A DNA stretch of 8,463 bases, taken from positions 1 through 8,463 of the forward strand of contig JAITGR010000142.1 of assembly GCA_031280455.1 (NCBI GenBank), written 5' to 3'. Below are positions 1-7,646 of this stretch, in pieces. A program made the translations under genes and the position numbers. The notes beneath the pieces were generated by a model. That model was not told where the DNA came from, did no database searches, and worked only from the letters and a program-made list of their open reading frames with translations. This DNA is from Spirochaetaceae bacterium. GTDB taxonomy: Bacteria; Spirochaetota; Spirochaetia; Treponematales; Breznakiellaceae. How positions within the stretch are numbered: the stretch's first letter is position 1; each line of letters starts with the position of its first letter.

Positions 1-4
1 TGAG

Positions 5-120
5 GCTGTTCCAAAACTTCAGTTTTTGGAACAGCTACCTTAAAAAACCGCAGTTTTGCAGGCTCCAGGCCGAAAAACTGCAAGAGCCTGTTACAAAACA
101 ACCGGTTTTGGAACAGGCTC
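5..120. repeat. Cluster of three intergenic hairpins sharing a GTTCCAAAAC-like arm
   Basis: Three inverted repeats lie in a row. The first pairs 5-16 with 24-35, 12 perfect pairs around a 7-base loop. The second pairs 50-57 with 74-81, 8 pairs. The third pairs 84-99 with 105-120, 15 of 16 positions, around a 5-base loop. The first and third share the arm GTTCCAAAAC or a one-base variant, so they look like diverged copies of one element. The GGCTC at 61-65 can also pair with GAGCC at 84-88, giving an alternative fold. There is no T-tract after any stem, so a classical intrinsic terminator is not supported. A dispersed palindromic repeat, or a 3' end-stabilising structure for a gene upstream of the window, is more likely. 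Confidence 0.75.
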
Positions 121-298
121 AATTTGGTATTGGGGACCGTACACATTATGCGCATAGTAACCTTCTCTGTTTTACCGCAAGAACATCGCGCGAAACGTGC
201 CGCGCTGACTAAAAGATAAATCTGGCCGCGCCATTGTGTCTAGACAAGCGCTGACGGTTGTCAGTTGTCAAAACCAAGATTAACCGAAAACTGAAAAA
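121..298. other. Non-coding stretch with small palindromes, no gene seen
   Basis: No reading frame here has a plausible start, ribosome site and composition. Two small patterns are visible: the perfect 10-base palindrome TATGCGCATA at 147-156 and two tandem copies of GTTGTCA at 257-270. Neither has an evident function. Confidence 0.5.
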
Positions 299-422: not shown

Positions 423-1874
423 ATGAAAAAAATGGTTTGTGGAATGCTGGCGCTCGTGTGTGCGGGCGGCAGTCTGTTTGCGGAGGTTGTTCTGTCGGGT
501 TCGGGCAGGATTCTGTGGGCGCCCTTTGGCGCGCAGTTGCCGAATGATGATTCCGCTAAATGGGGCGACGGCAAAGACTACCCCGTACGCACCTACTTTG
601 GCGCGGAAAATCCGTGGTGGAACGACGGCCCGCGTATCGGGCTTAACCTAAACGGCCAGCGGGAAGAAGGCAACATGGGCTTTAAGCTCGGCTTTCGCGT
701 GGAAAACGGCGCGCCAGTCATTGACGACTGCATCGCCAATGTGTGGCTCCGCCCCTTTTACAATGCCGAAGACGAAGGAAACGCCGTTTTAGGCAGCATA
801 ACACTGACCTTCGGGCAGTACGCCATAGACAACATGCGCTACAAGTTCGCCGGCTCGGGCATCGGCTTTCATAACTACGTCCAGTACATACGCGCCGGCG
901 ACAGCGGGGCGGGCCTTACTAACGAAGAATCCACCTTCCAGCGCTTCCAGTCACCGGGCTTTGGCACCCACATCAGCATAGAGCCGGTAAGCGGCCTGTG
1001 GCTTGGCGCGGGCTTTGGCAGCGTTGGCTCTAGCCGCCTGTTCCGCAACGAATGGCACGAAAACGGCTGGGTAGACGCCATGAAAAACGCGCAAATCGCC
1101 GCCGGTTACACCATAGAAGGCGTCGGCCTTGTCCGCGTCCAGTGGGTCGGCTGGCAGGAGAAATACTGGCGGGTAACCGAAGCGGATCCTTCAGGCAATC
1201 CTACCAAATGGGGCTGGGTGGTTGAATCGCTCGACAAGCCGCTCAACTACACAGGCGACGCGGGGAAAATACAGGCCGCGTTCAACCTAACGGCCGTTAA
1301 GGGCTTTAACGCCGACCTGGGTGTGAGTTTCGCGCTGGCCGATGAAAAAGACTGGTGGGACGACCTTGATAAAACGAACAAAACAAAGACCGTTACCACG
1401 CAGCCCAACCACACCGTGTCGCTGGGCTTCGACGTCAACACCCGCCCCGTGCGCGTGTACGGCATCGCGTCCGGCAAGTTCGGCGGGTATACCGAAGAAA
1501 AACCGGCTGTCGGCGATAGCACGACCGTTAAGCAGGGGACGGAGTTGTCGCTGAACATCGAGCCGTGGTGGTACATTAACTCCGGCCTTATGCTGGTTGC
1601 CGAGCTTTTTGTCGATACCCGCTTTGGCAGTGATGAAGAGGTAACCGGCTCCACAGGCCAGCGCGGGGCGGACGCCGACCCTTCGCGTAATCCTGACGCG
1701 GGCGCGAAGAACAACTACACCGACCTGGGCTTTGGCCTGTTTGTCCGCAAAAACATTCCCGGCGGCGATATTCGCGCGGGTGTGGCGTGCAAGGTGCCGG
1801 GTGTGGCGGGGGACGCGCACAAGGGCGCGGCACTGCAAATTACCGTGCCGGTTATGTTCAACTACGGTTTCTAG
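423..1874 (+). CDS. Secreted outer-membrane beta-barrel protein (porin-like), 483 aa
   Basis: The start is the ATG at 423: GGAGGA at 410-415 sits 7 bases upstream and a signal peptide begins at once. An in-frame TTG at 384 lies upstream of that ribosome site and is rejected. Residues 1-20 form the signal: MKK, a hydrophobic core (residues 4-16), and a signal peptidase I site after S-L-F-A. The mature protein has no membrane helix. It has alternating polar and hydrophobic short strands rich in W, Y, F, G, N and D (for example W-W near residues 60 and 380), and it ends in ITVPVMFNYGF, a C-terminal aromatic strand like the recognition signal of outer-membrane barrels. I cannot name the family. 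It lies upstream of a sugar-type ABC importer, but a repeat and a second promoter intervene, so a role as its outer-membrane channel is inference. Confidence 0.8.
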   Translation: MKKMVCGMLALVCAGGSLFAEVVLSGSGRILWAPFGAQLPNDDSAKWGDGKDYPVRTYFGAENPWWNDGPRIGLNLNGQREEGNMGFKLGFRVENGAPVIDDCIANVWLRPFYNAEDEGNAVLGSITLTFGQYAIDNMRYKFAGSGIGFHNYVQYIRAGDSGAGLTNEESTFQRFQSPGFGTHISIEPVSGLWLGAGFGSVGSSRLFRNEWHENGWVDAMKNAQIAAGYTIEGVGLVRVQWVGWQEKYWRVTEADPSGNPTKWGWVVESLDKPLNYTGDAGKIQAAFNLTAVKGFNADLGVSFALADEKDWWDDLDKTNKTKTVTTQPNHTVSLGFDVNTRPVRVYGIASGKFGGYTEEKPAVGDSTTVKQGTELSLNIEPWWYINSGLMLVAELFVDTRFGSDEEVTGSTGQRGADADPSRNPDAGAKNNYTDLGFGLFVRKNIPGGDIRAGVACKVPGVAGDAHKGAALQITVPVMFNYGF

Positions 1875-3903: not shown

Positions 3904-3996
3904 CTGCCGGTTTGGCGGGCGAAGCCCGCCATTCGGCTTGGCCCAAAAGGCGCAGCCTTTTGGGCAGCTCAACTGGGCAGACTGCCAGTTTGGCGG
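3904..3996. repeat. Two trinucleotide-loop hairpins and a third weaker one, flanked by a direct repeat, between permease and binding-protein genes
   Basis: The first hairpin is 3914-3920 with 3924-3930, 7 perfect pairs and loop GAA. The second is 3941-3951 with 3955-3965, 11 perfect pairs and loop GCA. The third pairs AACTGG (3971-3976) with CCAGTT (3985-3990) plus a bulged pair. The copies CTGCCGGTTTGGCGG (3904-3918) and CTGCCAGTTTGGCGG (3982-3996), 14 of 15 identical, bracket the first two. No T-tract follows, so full termination is unlikely. In importer operons such structures can protect upstream mRNA ends or set the ratio of permease to binding protein; that role is inferred here. Confidence 0.8.
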
Positions 3997-4010
3997 TGTA
4001 TATAAATTAG

Positions 4011-4031
4011 ATGTATATGAGATACATGTAT
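4011..4031. promoter_or_regulatory. AT-rich palindromic leader before the binding-protein gene
   Basis: ATGTAT (4011-4016) and ATACAT (4022-4027) are inverted repeats, and ATACATGTAT (4022-4031) is a perfect palindrome. TATAAA at 4001-4006 could be a -10 box, but no convincing -35 lies at 16-18 bases. This could be an operator, an internal weak promoter or simply AT-rich leader sequence. The following ribosome site is GGAGGA at 4038-4043. Confidence 0.25.
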
Positions 4032-4046
4032 GTTTTTGGAGGATGT

Positions 4047-5642
4047 ATGAAAACAAGAAAGATTATGGCGCTTCTGGCGCTGGGCGCGGCGGTGTTCGTT
4101 CTGGGCGGCTGCGCGAAAAAGGGCGGCGGCGCGGGCGGGCCGCAGAAAGTGGTTGTGGAAGTGTTTGACCGCGGAACGGACGGCGGCAAAACAAGCCCGA
4201 CGGACAATCAGTGGACAAAGTGGATTAAGGAAAAGGCGCTGAAGGACGAAAACCTGGTCGTTGAATTTGTCGCGGTCAACCGCTGGGACGAAGCGACCGC
4301 GCTCACCAACCTTATGGCCGCCGGTACGCCGCCCGATGTCTGTATAACGTACAACAACGGCAACATTACAAGCTGGGCCGAGCAGGGCGGGCTTTTTAAC
4401 GTCGCGCCGTATTTGGATTCAACGTTAAAGGACTTGAACGATTTCCTGGGCGAAGACAAGGCGCTTCCCGGGCGGCGTATGATTGAACGGCAGCGGGACG
4501 AAAAAACCGGCGAGATTTATTCCATGCCCGCCCGCCGCATGAATGTCGCGCGGCTCAACACGTTTATCCGCAAGGACTGGCTGGACAAGCTGGGCCTCCC
4601 GCTGCCGCGCACAACGCAGGAATACTACGATGCGCTGGCGGCGTTCAAAGAAAAAGACCCGGGCGGTGTTGGCAAAGAAAAAGTAATTCCGTTTTCCACG
4701 GCGGGGCTGCGCATCGACTGGGGCGCGGGCACCATGCTCGATTCGTTTCTTGACCCCGAAATTTCGGTAAAAGAATTGTGGATAAACTCGGTTGTCGAGC
4801 GTTTCTTTCTGGTGCGTAACTACAAAGAGGGGCTGCGCTTCCTCAACAAAATGTACAACGCCGGCCTTGTCGACCGCGACTTTCCGCTGTACAAGGACGA
4901 CAACACGCTGTACAACTTGCTAAAAAGCGGCGTTGTGGGGAGTTTCATCCACAACTGGGACCAGATTTACCGCGACGGCGACGCTATTCTGAAAGATTTG
5001 CAGAAAAACATTCCCACCGCCGAACTGGTGCCGGTGGACTGCTTTACGTCCAGCGACGGTGTTACGCACAAAACCATCTACGACGCCGCGGGCGCGTTCT
5101 ACTTCATTCCCGCCGGCGCGAAAAATCCCGACGCGGCCATGCGCTACCTTAACTGGCTTTCGCGCTACGAAAACTACCACTTTATCCAGGTTGGGCCGGA
5201 GGGCGTTGTGCACACCATGGTCGACGGCGTTCCCAAAATCAACCCGACTGCCGGCGACGGCTGGATGCAGAACAGCTCGCAGAACATTGATTACACGCTG
5301 ATGATGAACGGCCTCTTTTTGGGCAACGACGACGAGAACATCAAGGCGCTGGCCGCCGGTTATTCGTGGCCTGCCGAAAAAATTGTGGGCGCGTACGAAA
5401 TGTCGTTGACCAATGGCCGTCCGGCGATTATCGTTACCACAACCGGCCCCCTCACGGTCGCCGGCCCGCTGACCCAGACGCTTACCGACAAAGGCGTGGT
5501 TATTTTTACCAAGTCAATTCAGGCAAAGCCATCCGACTTTGACGCGACGTACGACGCGCTCATCAAGGACTGGCTGGATTCCGGCGCGCAAAAAGTCGTC
5601 GACGAGCGCCGCGAAAAGTTCATCGACCCGTTTAACCGGTAG
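4047..5642 (+). CDS. Lipoprotein extracellular solute-binding protein, LplA-like, 531 aa
   Basis: This is the substrate-capturing part of the importer encoded just upstream. The ATG at 4047 gives a clean lipoprotein signal: MKTRK, a hydrophobic core, then L-G-G-C with Cys22 as the lipidation site, followed by a small glycine-rich linker. An in-frame ATG at 4011 would place the ribosome site inside the gene and spoil the signal. GGAGGA (4038-4043) is only 3 bases from the ATG, a tight spacing. The mature protein is of family-1 type: a beta strand after the linker, the G-T-P-P-D-V motif near residue 93 followed by W-A-E-Q-G-G-L-F-N-V-A-P-Y-L, and W-rich C-terminal segments. At about 530 residues it matches LplA/YtcQ-type proteins, which are larger than classical maltose-type binders. 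No residue identifies the ligand. A strong terminator follows the gene. Confidence 0.92.
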   Translation: MKTRKIMALLALGAAVFVLGGCAKKGGGAGGPQKVVVEVFDRGTDGGKTSPTDNQWTKWIKEKALKDENLVVEFVAVNRWDEATALTNLMAAGTPPDVCITYNNGNITSWAEQGGLFNVAPYLDSTLKDLNDFLGEDKALPGRRMIERQRDEKTGEIYSMPARRMNVARLNTFIRKDWLDKLGLPLPRTTQEYYDALAAFKEKDPGGVGKEKVIPFSTAGLRIDWGAGTMLDSFLDPEISVKELWINSVVERFFLVRNYKEGLRFLNKMYNAGLVDRDFPLYKDDNTLYNLLKSGVVGSFIHNWDQIYRDGDAILKDLQKNIPTAELVPVDCFTSSDGVTHKTIYDAAGAFYFIPAGAKNPDAAMRYLNWLSRYENYHFIQVGPEGVVHTMVDGVPKINPTAGDGWMQNSSQNIDYTLMMNGLFLGNDDENIKALAAGYSWPAEKIVGAYEMSLTNGRPAIIVTTTGPLTVAGPLTQTLTDKGVVIFTKSIQAKPSDFDATYDALIKDWLDSGAQKVVDERREKFIDPFNR

Positions 5643-5664
5643 TACCGCGTAAACGGAATTTCCA

Positions 5665-5747
5665 CGCCGGTCGCGCCGAAAAGGAGGATGTCTCCCGCCC
5701 TTGGTAAAGAGGGCGGGCAAATTCCGGCGCAACCGGCGGTTTTTTTT
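5665..5747 (+). terminator. Strong intrinsic terminator of the importer operon, with a nested hairpin
   Basis: The outer stem pairs 5665-5678 with 5725-5738, 13 of 14 positions and GC-rich. It encloses a second hairpin, CCCGCCCT (5694-5701) with AGGGCGGG (5710-5717). Eight T residues (5740-5747) follow almost directly. It begins 23 bases after the binding-protein stop. There is no T-run on the minus strand past the stem, so it works in one direction and does not serve hisS. Confidence 0.88.
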
Positions 5748-5750
5748 CTT

Positions 5751-5771
5751 CAGATTTCAGATTTCAGATTT
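5751..5771. repeat. Three tandem copies of CAGATTT
   Basis: Exact copies lie at 5751-5757, 5758-5764 and 5765-5771, immediately after the terminator T-run. This short tandem repeat could vary in number between strains. No function is apparent. Confidence 0.9.
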
Positions 5772-5776
5772 CGGTC

Positions 5777-5817
5777 TTTGCGCCGATAACGCAGCGCAAA
5801 CCAGCGTGTTCTGCGTT
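5777..5817 (-). other. Overlapping alternative hairpins at the 3' end of hisS
   Basis: TTTGCGC (5777-5783) pairs with GCGCAAA (5794-5800), and AACGCAG (5788-5794) pairs with CTGCGTT (5811-5817), which includes part of the hisS stop codon. The two folds share bases, so only one can form at a time. No U-tract follows on the minus strand. They may slow or end hisS transcription against the convergent operon, but this is not a canonical terminator. Confidence 0.35.
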
Positions 5818-7135
5818 ACTCCGCGCTTTTGGCCGGTGGGCAAATCGCCGCAATAACCTCGGCGACAGAAAGCCCTTCGCGGCTTTCGCGGGCGTCAAGG
5901 TCGCGCAACGTTATCGCGCGCGGCCCCCCGTCGTCGAACACCGGAACAAGCGCCCAGCGAAGTCCGCGCCGCTGCGCGCCCATAAAGAACGCGCCCGCCT
6001 TCTTCGCGTCCGCGCCGAGAACCTCGCAGCCGATACCCGCGCCGCGTAACTCCGCCGCCAGCCGGTGGCAAAAACCCGCGGCCTTTTCGTCTACAAGCGC
6101 GATAGCCGCCTGCGCGTATGTGGCCGCGCCGCCAGATTTCCCCAGCACATCCAGCGCGGCAATCAGCCGGTCAAGCCCAATCGAAGCCCCCACGCCGGAA
6201 AGTTTTTTGCGCGTGTACAACCCGGCCAGGTCGTCGTAACGGCCGCCTGAACACACCGATCCAATCTCCACTAGGCCGGTTAAAAAACTTTCGTAGACAA
6301 TACCCGTGTAGTAATCCAGCCCGCGCGTAATAGACGGGTCAAGCGCAAACCCGTCCGCGCAGCCGGCGTCGCGCAAAAAAGCGTACAACGCCGCAAGCCG
6401 CTCCGATTCAGGACACACCCCGCCAGAACGCGCCGTCAACTCCGCCAGCGCCGCCGGCCAGTCGCCGGCGCATTCAACATACGCAAGAATTTCCCGCGCG
6501 CGCTCCCCTCCCGCGCAGGCGGCAAGCAGCGCTTCCGTTTCGGCGCGGCCAATTTTAGCCCGCTTGTCAACCGCCCGCAAAATCGCGGCAGACTGCTCCC
6601 GCAGCCCAAGACGCGCAAGAAACCGGTTAAACAACCCCCGGTGATTCACATGAATAACAACCTCGCCAGCGCCGGCAGCAGCCAACGCCTCGCGCATCAT
6701 ACACAAAATTTCAAAATCCGCAAACGCGCAATCCTCACCCACAGCGTCGCAATCGCACTGCGTAAACTCGCGGTACCGCCCCCGCTGCGTATTCTCCCCC
6801 CGCCACACCTTGGCAATGTGATACCGCTTAAACGGAAACGGCAGCACGTCAAAATTCGCCGCCACAAACCGCGCCAGCGGCACCGTCAAATCAAACCGAA
6901 GCGCCACATCACGCCCGCCAGAATCCGTAAACCGGTACACCTGCTTTTCCGTCTCCCCCCCCCCCTTACCCAGCAAGACACTTGTATACTCCAGCGCCGG
7001 CGTATCAATAGGAACATACCCATACAAGCGGTACACCCCCTCAATACGCGAAGTCAACGCCCGCCTGGCAATCTCGCCTGCCGGCAGCAAATCCCTAAAA
7101 CCCTTCAAAACCCGCGGTTCAATAATGTTCGCCAT
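5816..7135 (-). CDS. hisS: Histidyl-tRNA synthetase, 439 aa
   Basis: This cytoplasmic class II synthetase charges tRNA-His with histidine at the cost of ATP. The sequence reads as a complete enzyme. The family start KGFRDLLP is at residues 11-18. A motif-1-adjacent strand FDLTVPLAR spans 81-89. Motif 2 has R112 and E114, then GRYREFTQCD (119-128). The histidine-specific loops are LDYYTG (273-278) and CSGGRYDDL (295-303). Motif 3, GVGASIGLDR, spans 314-323. The last 90 or so residues form the anticodon-binding domain. The ATG at 7135 is chosen because MANIIEPRVLKGFRD matches the family start; a TTG 33 codons upstream would read through the promoter. Only GGGG, one base from the ATG, lies upstream, and the promoter position suggests a leaderless mRNA. 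Codons 57-61 contain 11 G in a row. The gene faces the importer operon tail to tail. Confidence 0.97.
   Translation of the reverse strand: MANIIEPRVLKGFRDLLPAGEIARRALTSRIEGVYRLYGYVPIDTPALEYTSVLLGKGGGETEKQVYRFTDSGGRDVALRFDLTVPLARFVAANFDVLPFPFKRYHIAKVWRGENTQRGRYREFTQCDCDAVGEDCAFADFEILCMMREALAAAGAGEVVIHVNHRGLFNRFLARLGLREQSAAILRAVDKRAKIGRAETEALLAACAGGERAREILAYVECAGDWPAALAELTARSGGVCPESERLAALYAFLRDAGCADGFALDPSITRGLDYYTGIVYESFLTGLVEIGSVCSGGRYDDLAGLYTRKKLSGVGASIGLDRLIAALDVLGKSGGAATYAQAAIALVDEKAAGFCHRLAAELRGAGIGCEVLGADAKKAGAFFMGAQRRGLRWALVPVFDDGGPRAITLRDLDARESREGLSVAEVIAAICPPAKSAE
6955..6965 (-). repeat. Homopolymer of 11 G (coding strand) inside hisS
   Basis: Eleven C on the plus strand read as 11 G in hisS, spanning codons Lys57, Gly58-Gly60 and Glu61. 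The glycines belong to a conserved loop near the active site, K-G-G-G-E-T-E-K-Q. The frame is intact at this length. Any change not a multiple of three would truncate an essential enzyme. Confidence 0.95.
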
Positions 7136-7141
7136 ACCCCA

Positions 7142-7170
7142 ATTATACGCGTCCCCCGCCGCCCAATCAA
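7142..7170 (-). promoter_or_regulatory. hisS promoter, positioned for a leaderless transcript
   Basis: On the minus strand, TTGATT (7165-7170) is followed by a 17-base spacer and a perfect TATAAT (7142-7147). If the -10 box ends at -7, position +1 falls exactly on the A of the ATG at 7135. The 6 bases between box and ATG contain GGGG, too close to serve as a usual ribosome site. Confidence 0.75.
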
Positions 7171-7216
7171 CCGCCGCCAGAAAATCGCCGATTAACCCGG
7201 GCAGAATTTGGGCGCA

Positions 7217-7492
7217 TTTGCCGCTGCGCGGCAAACCGCGCTTTCCGCTCCAATCTTTTTGCTCCGCCTGAAGGCGGGCAAAAAGTATTTCCGCTGCAAT
7301 CGCTTGCGCTGCCTAAAATCCGCATCCTGCGGATTTTAGGCTTGCATAGTTTGGCAAAGCCAAACTATGCAGAATTGGACACCAGCCGCCATCCATGGCG
7401 GCGACATCCATGGCGTTTTCTTAGCTTGTAGTTTGCGCAAAGCGCAAACGACAAGCCCAAAGTGCGCAGCACTTTGGGCAGGCATCCCTGCC
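7217..7492. repeat. Dense array of eight short hairpins, mostly with three-base loops
   Basis: H1 is 7217-7224/7228-7235, loop TGC. H2 is 7255-7268/7273-7285 with one bulge, loop TGAA. H3 is 7311-7324/7328-7341, 14 perfect pairs, loop TCC. H4 is 7343-7355/7359-7371, 13 perfect pairs, loop AAA. H5 is 7385-7391/7396-7402. H6 is 7424-7438/7442-7456, 14 of 15 pairs, loop AAA. H7 is 7455-7465/7469-7479, 11 perfect pairs, loop GCA. H8 is 7477-7482/7487-7492, overlapping H7 by a few bases. A 14-base direct repeat with one mismatch (7242-7255 and 7288-7301) brackets H2, and CATCCATGGCG occurs at 7390-7400 and 7405-7415. H7 and the 3941-3965 hairpin are versions of one sequence. It is not a CRISPR (no constant repeat) and shows no attC core. 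It may be a repeat family or a structured RNA. Confidence 0.85.
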
Positions 7493-7646
7493 GCCCATCC
7501 ATGCTCTGGAACATCTTGACCGTTTCGTCCAACATTCTCCATGCAGTCTCGACGGCCAAACAAAGCCTCATGGTTAGATTATCTTGAGATGCCGAAAGCC
7601 TTTCGGTCAGGTTTTTACTTGAGACATCACGGGGAAGGAGTACCGC
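7493..7646. other. Spacer before the alcohol dehydrogenase gene, with a hairpin and a ribosome site
   Basis: GCCGAAA (7591-7597) pairs with TTTCGGT (7601-7607) around loop GCC, and five T follow at 7612-7616, so a weak terminator or attenuator in the leader is possible. CTTGAGA is repeated at 7583-7589 and 7618-7624. GGAAGGAG (7633-7640) is the ribosome site for the gene at 7647. I see no clear promoter. On the minus strand a reading frame passes through this spacer with protein-like composition, but it also runs through the hairpins and into the dehydrogenase gene, so I do not call it a gene. Confidence 0.4.

Follow-up and report, generated by a model that had tools for sequence, protein, structure and literature searches.

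A dispersed double-palindrome repeat in a spirochaete family and the probable maintenance of its second hairpin as DNA

Two nearly identical hairpins in an 8,463-nucleotide stretch of spirochaete DNA (hereafter the window) are each the second hairpin of a repeated double hairpin, H2-AA-H3, where H2 and H3 are our names for the first and second hairpin of the unit and H1 denotes a further hairpin that sometimes lies ahead of them. The unit is dispersed both within and between genomes, and two odd hairpins thus lead to a repeat family that is matched in at least 74 of 190 genomes of one bacterial family. The letters of H2 are fairly constant; those of H3 are variable, while its pairing is conserved and its two arms covary. 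Taken as a whole, these observations are probably best explained by a dispersed, mostly intergenic double-palindrome repeat in which H3 is kept as a DNA palindrome.

Besides its first gene (Table 1), the window carries genes for two ABC permeases, a solute-binding protein, a histidyl-tRNA synthetase (HisRS, on the minus strand) and an iron-containing alcohol dehydrogenase. The best relatives of its HisRS, with a top identity of 67%, come from MAGs titled Spirochaetaceae or Treponema, many of which were presumably obtained from termite guts. The family of the genome with the best HisRS relative, G001, supplied the set of genomes that was searched, which comprised 195 genomes for the exact pattern of the first-pass annotation and 190 otherwise. 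A second genome, G120, has a HisRS that is 63% identical to that of the window and therefore represents a species other than the window's. None of the HisRS loci examined for empty-site synteny (L001-L080, L101, L171 and the G001 contigs) carries any window gene besides HisRS.

Table 1. Positions of the features discussed, in window coordinates
Feature	Position	Strand	Remarks
Protein without Pfam match	423-1874		First gene of the window
Perfect hairpin TGGCGGGC-GAA-GCCCGCCA	3913-3931	+	Upstream of copy 1
H3-type hairpin, copy 1	3941-3965	+	GCCCAAAAGGC-GCA-GCCTTTTGGGC; 11 bp stem, loop GCA
Rfam Flavo-1 (RF01705) match	7230-7318	-	Directly after H3', same strand; 53.0 bits, gathering score 42, E=1.6e-9
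Rfam TD-2 (RF03162) match, H1-H2'-H3'	7307-7402	-	48.7 bits, E=3.4e-5
H3' hairpin GCCTAAAATCCGCA-GGA-TGCGGATTTTAGGC (long form)	7311-7341	-	Minus-strand unit; R1 match
H2' hairpin TGCATAGTTTGGC-TTT-GCCAAACTATGCA	7343-7371	-	Minus-strand unit
H1 hairpin GCCGCCA-TCCA-TGGCGGC	7385-7402	.	Between the two H2-H3 arms
H2 hairpin GTAGTTTGCGC-AAA-GCGCAAACGAC (one A.G mismatch) and AA spacer	7428-7454	+	Directly before copy 2; R1 match
H3 hairpin, copy 2	7455-7479	+	GCCCAAAGTGC-GCA-GCACTTTGGGC; 11 bp stem, loop GCA

The first-pass annotation had drawn attention to the two 25-base hairpins, and its description of them holds in every detail that we read from the sequence: they are identical at 21 of 25 positions, they differ at exactly pair 8 (A-T in copy 1, G-C in copy 2) and pair 9 (G-C and T-A) with full compensation, and both are directly followed by AG. 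Its pattern GCCCAAAN4GCAN4TTTGGGC, with up to three mismatches allowed, matches the window four times (copies 1 and 2, each on both strands) against 0.09 matches expected, a number that none of 200 shuffles reached, and five perfect hairpins with a stem of at least 11 bp stand against none in 20 Markov shuffles. Absent from that annotation were the richness in hairpins of the intergenic region 7217-7479, with its two Rfam matches to TD-2 and Flavo-1, and the fact that copy 2 is part of a double hairpin. Between the divergent HisRS and alcohol dehydrogenase genes, positions 7311-7479 form a symmetric array, H3'-H2'-H1-H2-H3. Copy 1, which is located between the genes for the second ABC permease and the solute-binding protein, belongs to a less canonical unit: the hairpin upstream of it does not have the letters of H2 and is separated from H3 by 9 nt instead of the usual AA, and its role as a diverged H2 is a possible one that we infer. 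Because both copies belong to a large dispersed family with a variable inner stem, two compensated pairs need not represent one event. The covariation that the annotation had proposed is real and stronger than it could see, a single shared event between these two sites is not required, and we retain both of the explanations that it had offered, namely selection on the fold and rewriting of one arm from the other by template switching.

The anatomy of the unit is clearest in G120, where a hairpin, typically reading GGGTTTTGCC-NNN-GGCAAAACCC and followed by AA, usually lies ahead of H3. An AA in front of the stem or a TT behind it gave the orientation of 46 out of 60 non-redundant hairpins. Several G120 units that were anchored on GCCCAA (L155, L157, L163 and L165) have H2 stems with other letters, which are also paired. 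Long forms of H3 carry the loop ATGGAT or ACGGAT, like the third hairpin of Rfam TD-2. Units are found singly, in tandem at a distance of about 87 bases, and as inverted pairs of the form H3'-TT-H2'-spacer-H2-AA-H3 (L269, L306), and the array in the window is such an inverted pair with H1 in its middle. Nested forms were also observed, with an H3-like hairpin inside the loop of H2 at two places in G120 (L170, contig 276, 9902-9965 and 11403-11465) and a small hairpin inside the loop of H3 in L289.

Dispersal was assessed with a covariance model, R1, which was built from 16 units of the single genome G120 with the window held out. R1 matches the window at 7428-7481 on the plus strand (46.2 bits, E=2.6e-11), at 7309-7370 on the minus strand (E=2.3e-7) and at 3923-3967 on the plus strand (E=6.1e-6), the last with most of the H2 part unaligned. 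The count of genomes with matches given above refers to E<=1e-4 in one spirochaete family, and this and other R1 genome counts are lower bounds, as strict filters were applied and no more than 31 candidates in each genome were scored. G001 has three R1 matches in its whole genome and none at E<=0.1 in 10 contigs. The exact pattern occurs in one of the 195 family genomes, G120, where it is found 17 times (10 forward, 7 reverse) against none for a control pattern. When the middle of the pattern is left free, 46 of 190 genomes have matches, mostly 1 to 3 as with the reversed control; the counts for G120 (58), G105 (33), G081 (26) and G086 (9) greatly exceed those of the controls (0 to 2). With the pattern widened slightly, 60 copies are detected in G120, versus 2 for its reversed control. 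Hairpins are common in bacterial intergenic regions, but chance or unrelated terminators are refuted by the shuffles of the window, by the held-out R1 match at 7428-7481 and by these 60 copies, which together leave that explanation with practically no probability. In 40 G120 contigs sampled at nearly regular intervals, perfect hairpins with a stem of at least 10 bp number 60 in 282,633 bases, a density of 2.12 per 10 kb (2 in the shuffle); the corresponding figures for 10 G001 contigs are 11 in 111,129 bases and 0.99 per 10 kb (1 in the shuffle). The genes that flank the units may be divergent (five units, of which the window has two), co-directional or convergent, and 30 of 74 units lie inside called ORFs, a number to be read in the light of crude gene calling in which some ORFs are probably over-extended. 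A bias of orientation relative to the downstream gene was considered and rejected, since 18 units lie on the same strand and 18 on the opposite strand where a downstream gene was called. In the G120 contigs C1, C33, C38 and C63, several units are no more than a few hundred bases away from where the contig stops; the repeat may therefore interrupt assemblies, and draft genomes may show fewer copies than are really present.

The pairing of H3 was examined from anchors consisting of H2 plus AA, which are blind to H3 itself. Among G120 loci, many of which had been fetched via the GCCCAAA pattern, a hairpin comes next at 34 of 37 anchors (27 perfect, 7 with one or two mismatches), and the three failures include one truncated unit. 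In 40 contigs chosen mostly regardless of GCCCAAA (L192-L231), a hairpin follows five of seven anchors and is perfect in four. Over all anchored loci there are 136 H2 anchors on both strands, about half of which face the wrong way because H2 is itself a palindrome, and a hairpin comes next at 68 of them. These represent 61 distinct hairpins from 25 genomes, about seven of which we judged from their spacer and by reading to be neighbours of H2 other than H3; 48 of the 61 are perfect. Uncompensated mismatches, on whose frequency in other copies the first-pass annotation had staked its claim, are few: 16 of 719 pairs, in 13 of the 61 hairpins, with G-T and A-C accounting for 5 each and other combinations for 6. 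Single-base bulges are absent from the 27 anchored sites that were examined in 60 contigs of G120, where 21 stems are perfect, with lengths of 11, 14 or 17 bp, three have one mismatch and three are unclassed, one of the latter being a hairpin with two mismatches.

Covariation was quantified in two sets of hairpins. In the first, which consists of 21 distinct 25-base H3, 19 supplied by G120 and two by the window, both sides change in 18 cells versus 4.1 in shuffles (reached by 0 of 500); the four pairs with change on both sides (106 of 500) and seven further pair types (84 of 500) are not unusual. In a wider set of 26 chosen 25-base hairpins, 24 from 16 genomes and two from the window, both sides change in 9 of 11 pairs (a value reached by 2 of 500 shuffles) and in 65 of 286 cells (versus 16.8 in shuffles, 0 of 500), further pair types number 18 (27 of 500), and the covariation score is 0.665 as opposed to 0.161 after shuffling (0 of 500). 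In this set 99.0% of cells pair, a proportion that drops to about half when the partner is slid by one column. Near-perfect pairing and the likeness of H2 across species arise partly by selection of the loci, which were fetched as R1 matches, as R1 rewards both pairing and the letters of H2.

H2-AA-H3 corresponds to the last two hairpins of Rfam TD-2 (RF03162, clan CL00124), which was reportedly described by Weinberg and colleagues in 2017 and with which the present units share the order H1-H2-H3, the AA before H3 and the ATGGAT-type loops in H1 and long H3. The minus-strand TD-2 match in the window is borderline, as its score equals the gathering score exactly, and neither of the two noted hairpins lies inside it. 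Around copy 2, H2-AA-H3 is clear and H1 lies 25 bases upstream of H2, and no plus-strand TD-2 match was found up to E=1. Matches to R1 and to TD-2 fall together on the minus strand of the window and in two G120 contigs, C166 and C225, with the TD-2 match in C225 falling short of the gathering score. However, the present family is broader than TD-2, since H3 is highly variable and many units have a short H3 with a three-base loop that the TD-2 model misses; G120 has three TD-2 matches at E<=0.001, two of them over the cut-off, and at least 31 R1 matches. This suggests that TD-2 covers only part of a larger repeat family. Matches to MIR8008 and mir-4520, all below their gathering scores, were taken as chance. 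A comparison of window positions 7200-7500 with phage records gave no match, and two IMG/VR stretches that match the pattern were rejected as viral copies, their inner positions being paired at two of four and none of four and no adjoining H2 being seen by eye.

The Rfam label of TD-2 is Gene; sRNA, and the matches to it in the window and in relatives, the strong covariation and the many units located between called genes would all be consistent with a structure acting at the RNA level, in which a transcribed H1-H2-H3 would serve as a small RNA, a 3'-end stabiliser or a terminator and covariation would keep the RNA fold. If an RNA fold mattered, however, G-U intermediates should exceed A-C mismatches, and on the sense strand G-T is no commoner than A-C (5 versus 5, a small number among 16 mismatches in all). 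Read in the H2-to-H3 direction, neither noted hairpin shows the GC-rich stem and subsequent T-run of an intrinsic terminator; terminator-like marks are confined to the minus strand of copy 2 (7479-7455, with a weak tail) and two other nearby sites, in chance-like numbers. Moreover, units stand in divergent intergenic spaces, the window's own included. We therefore regard a role as RNA as unlikely. The varied loops, the stems of different length without bulges and the absence of strand preference indicate a DNA palindrome, and we infer that it is this palindrome, and not an RNA fold, that is conserved.

These results suggest that the palindrome is kept as DNA, by selection on the folded strand, by template-switch copying between the arms, or by both. 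According to the explanation that we favour, the unit would spread through the genome by being copied as DNA. A folded single strand or a cruciform would be recognised, and this recognition would keep H3 perfectly paired; template switching during replication, by which one arm is corrected from the other, may help or even drive this pairing. Pair-by-pair drift of H3 stems within the family would then account for the differences between copies 1 and 2. Two cases carry signs of template-switch copying. In the tandem units of L168, there is one difference in 60 upstream bases, yet the H3 stems differ by three compensated pairs. In the neighbouring units of L156, the stem and the first 15 downstream bases are identical and the loops, TAC and GTA, are reverse complements. 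However, inverted loops, which would mark template switching most clearly, are not a general feature, because most loops keep one orientation: among oriented G120 units read by eye, GCA occurs 12 times and TGC three times, CAC five times and GTG never, and AAC four times and GTT never, though both GTA (four) and TAC (three) are found. Random flipping of loops as a general rule was thus not seen in the G120 units.

Template switching as the maker and keeper of hairpins in RNA genes is treated in PMC8794818, at least part of which describes features that the H2-H3 repeat shares, namely perfect stems, several compensatory changes at once and occasional loop inversion; the cases given there are RNA genes, whereas here we have a dispersed repeat in which loop inversion is not the rule. 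It is conceivable, though we consider it rather unlikely, that this process is sufficient, and that template switching between arms keeps the palindromes perfect in a repeat without function. The process as set out there for RNA hairpins would account for near-perfect arms, varied loops, the lack of bulges and of a G-U preference, and the one apparent loop inversion in L156 together with the occurrence of both GTA and TAC loops. However, correction alone would not be expected to leave H2 more alike across genomes than H3 (a difference that partly reflects the way in which loci were collected, model and anchors both favouring H2), most loops retain their orientation, and spread to dozens of places is not explained by mutation alone. 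Whether selection or template switching keeps hairpins perfect is a question raised in the same source, and a fairly constant stem beside a stem kept mainly by its pairing offers a direct test of the two. We speculate, as a tentative extension, that H2 is a nearly fixed address and that H3 can be almost any sequence with matching arms, renewed by arm-to-arm copying. If true, the H2-H3 element would document in nature how palindromes are corrected, simultaneously at numerous sites and in numerous species.

The nearest known kind of element to the H2-H3 repeat are REPINs, with which it shares dispersed extragenic palindromes, inverted pairs or doublets, tandem clusters and compensatory stem changes, as far as these are described in the relevant part of PMC3116915. 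This likeness could be taken to mean that the repeat is a classical REP or REPIN mobilised by RAYT or another Y1 transposase, but several points make this quite improbable. The repeat has two hairpins per half-element, and visual inspection revealed no unpaired GTAG or CGTC tag that is constant; H2 usually starts with GGAG or GGG, and where GTAG starts H2, in the window (7428) and in L249, it does so as stem letters. G-T pairing, which is noted in a passage of PMC3733652 as often observed in the stems of GTAG-type repeats, is rare here. Finally, Y1_Tnp (PF01797) does not track the repeat: of four repeat-rich genomes, G105 and G086 have none, G120 has a fragment of 34 positions and G081 has one, while G009 has one PF01797 match and, under strict filters, no R1 match. 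As these genomes are drafts, the absence of PF01797 carries little weight. Dispersal needs some copying machinery, and the candidate mobilising enzyme, a Y1 transposase, is not distributed in step with the repeat. Within titles and the beginnings of abstracts, a body of literature that includes few subscription papers, we recognised no description of the H2-H3 repeat.

H3 appears to be the end of a module, after which comes a promoter, Flavo-1 or the next unit. TTGAC starts 0-6 bases after the end of the R1 match in 12 of 74 units, compared with about 0.5 expected by chance from a hand calculation, and by eye several of these run on into plausible -10 boxes, so units could have a role at promoters; none of the three window units is among the 12. 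A Flavo-1 match lies directly downstream of H3 on the minus strand of the window, in L249 and, below the gathering score, in L178. Flavo-1 is listed for Bacteroidetes in the portion of PMC2864571 that concerns it, and is here a module separate from H2-H3 in a spirochaete family; at E<=0.001 it is matched in 69 of the 190 genomes, 43 of which have matches over the cut-off, whereas G120 has no match. This suggests that Flavo-1 is a neighbouring module in spirochaetes.

Several other palindromic features were observed. A long imperfect inverted repeat follows the first gene of the window, at 1935-1989, and its sole Rfam match is far under the gathering score. At window positions 1-121 there is a second hairpin composite, with arms at 5-16 and 24-35 and at 84-99 and 105-120; by eye, its linear boxes CTACCTT and GCAGGCTCC recur with differing stems in the G120 loci L083 and L088, and the composite appears to represent a second repeat family whose stems change. 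Several G120 contigs (for example L196 7521-7556, L205 7006-7041 and L226 80-115) contain yet another dispersed palindrome, AGTCTGTCTATAATGTGTCCACATTATAGACAGACT, with its loop in both orientations, GTCC and GGAC, and L220 carries, at 574-734, an array of TTGTCTCAAGACAA / TTGTCTTGAGACAA palindromes in steps of about 21 bases.
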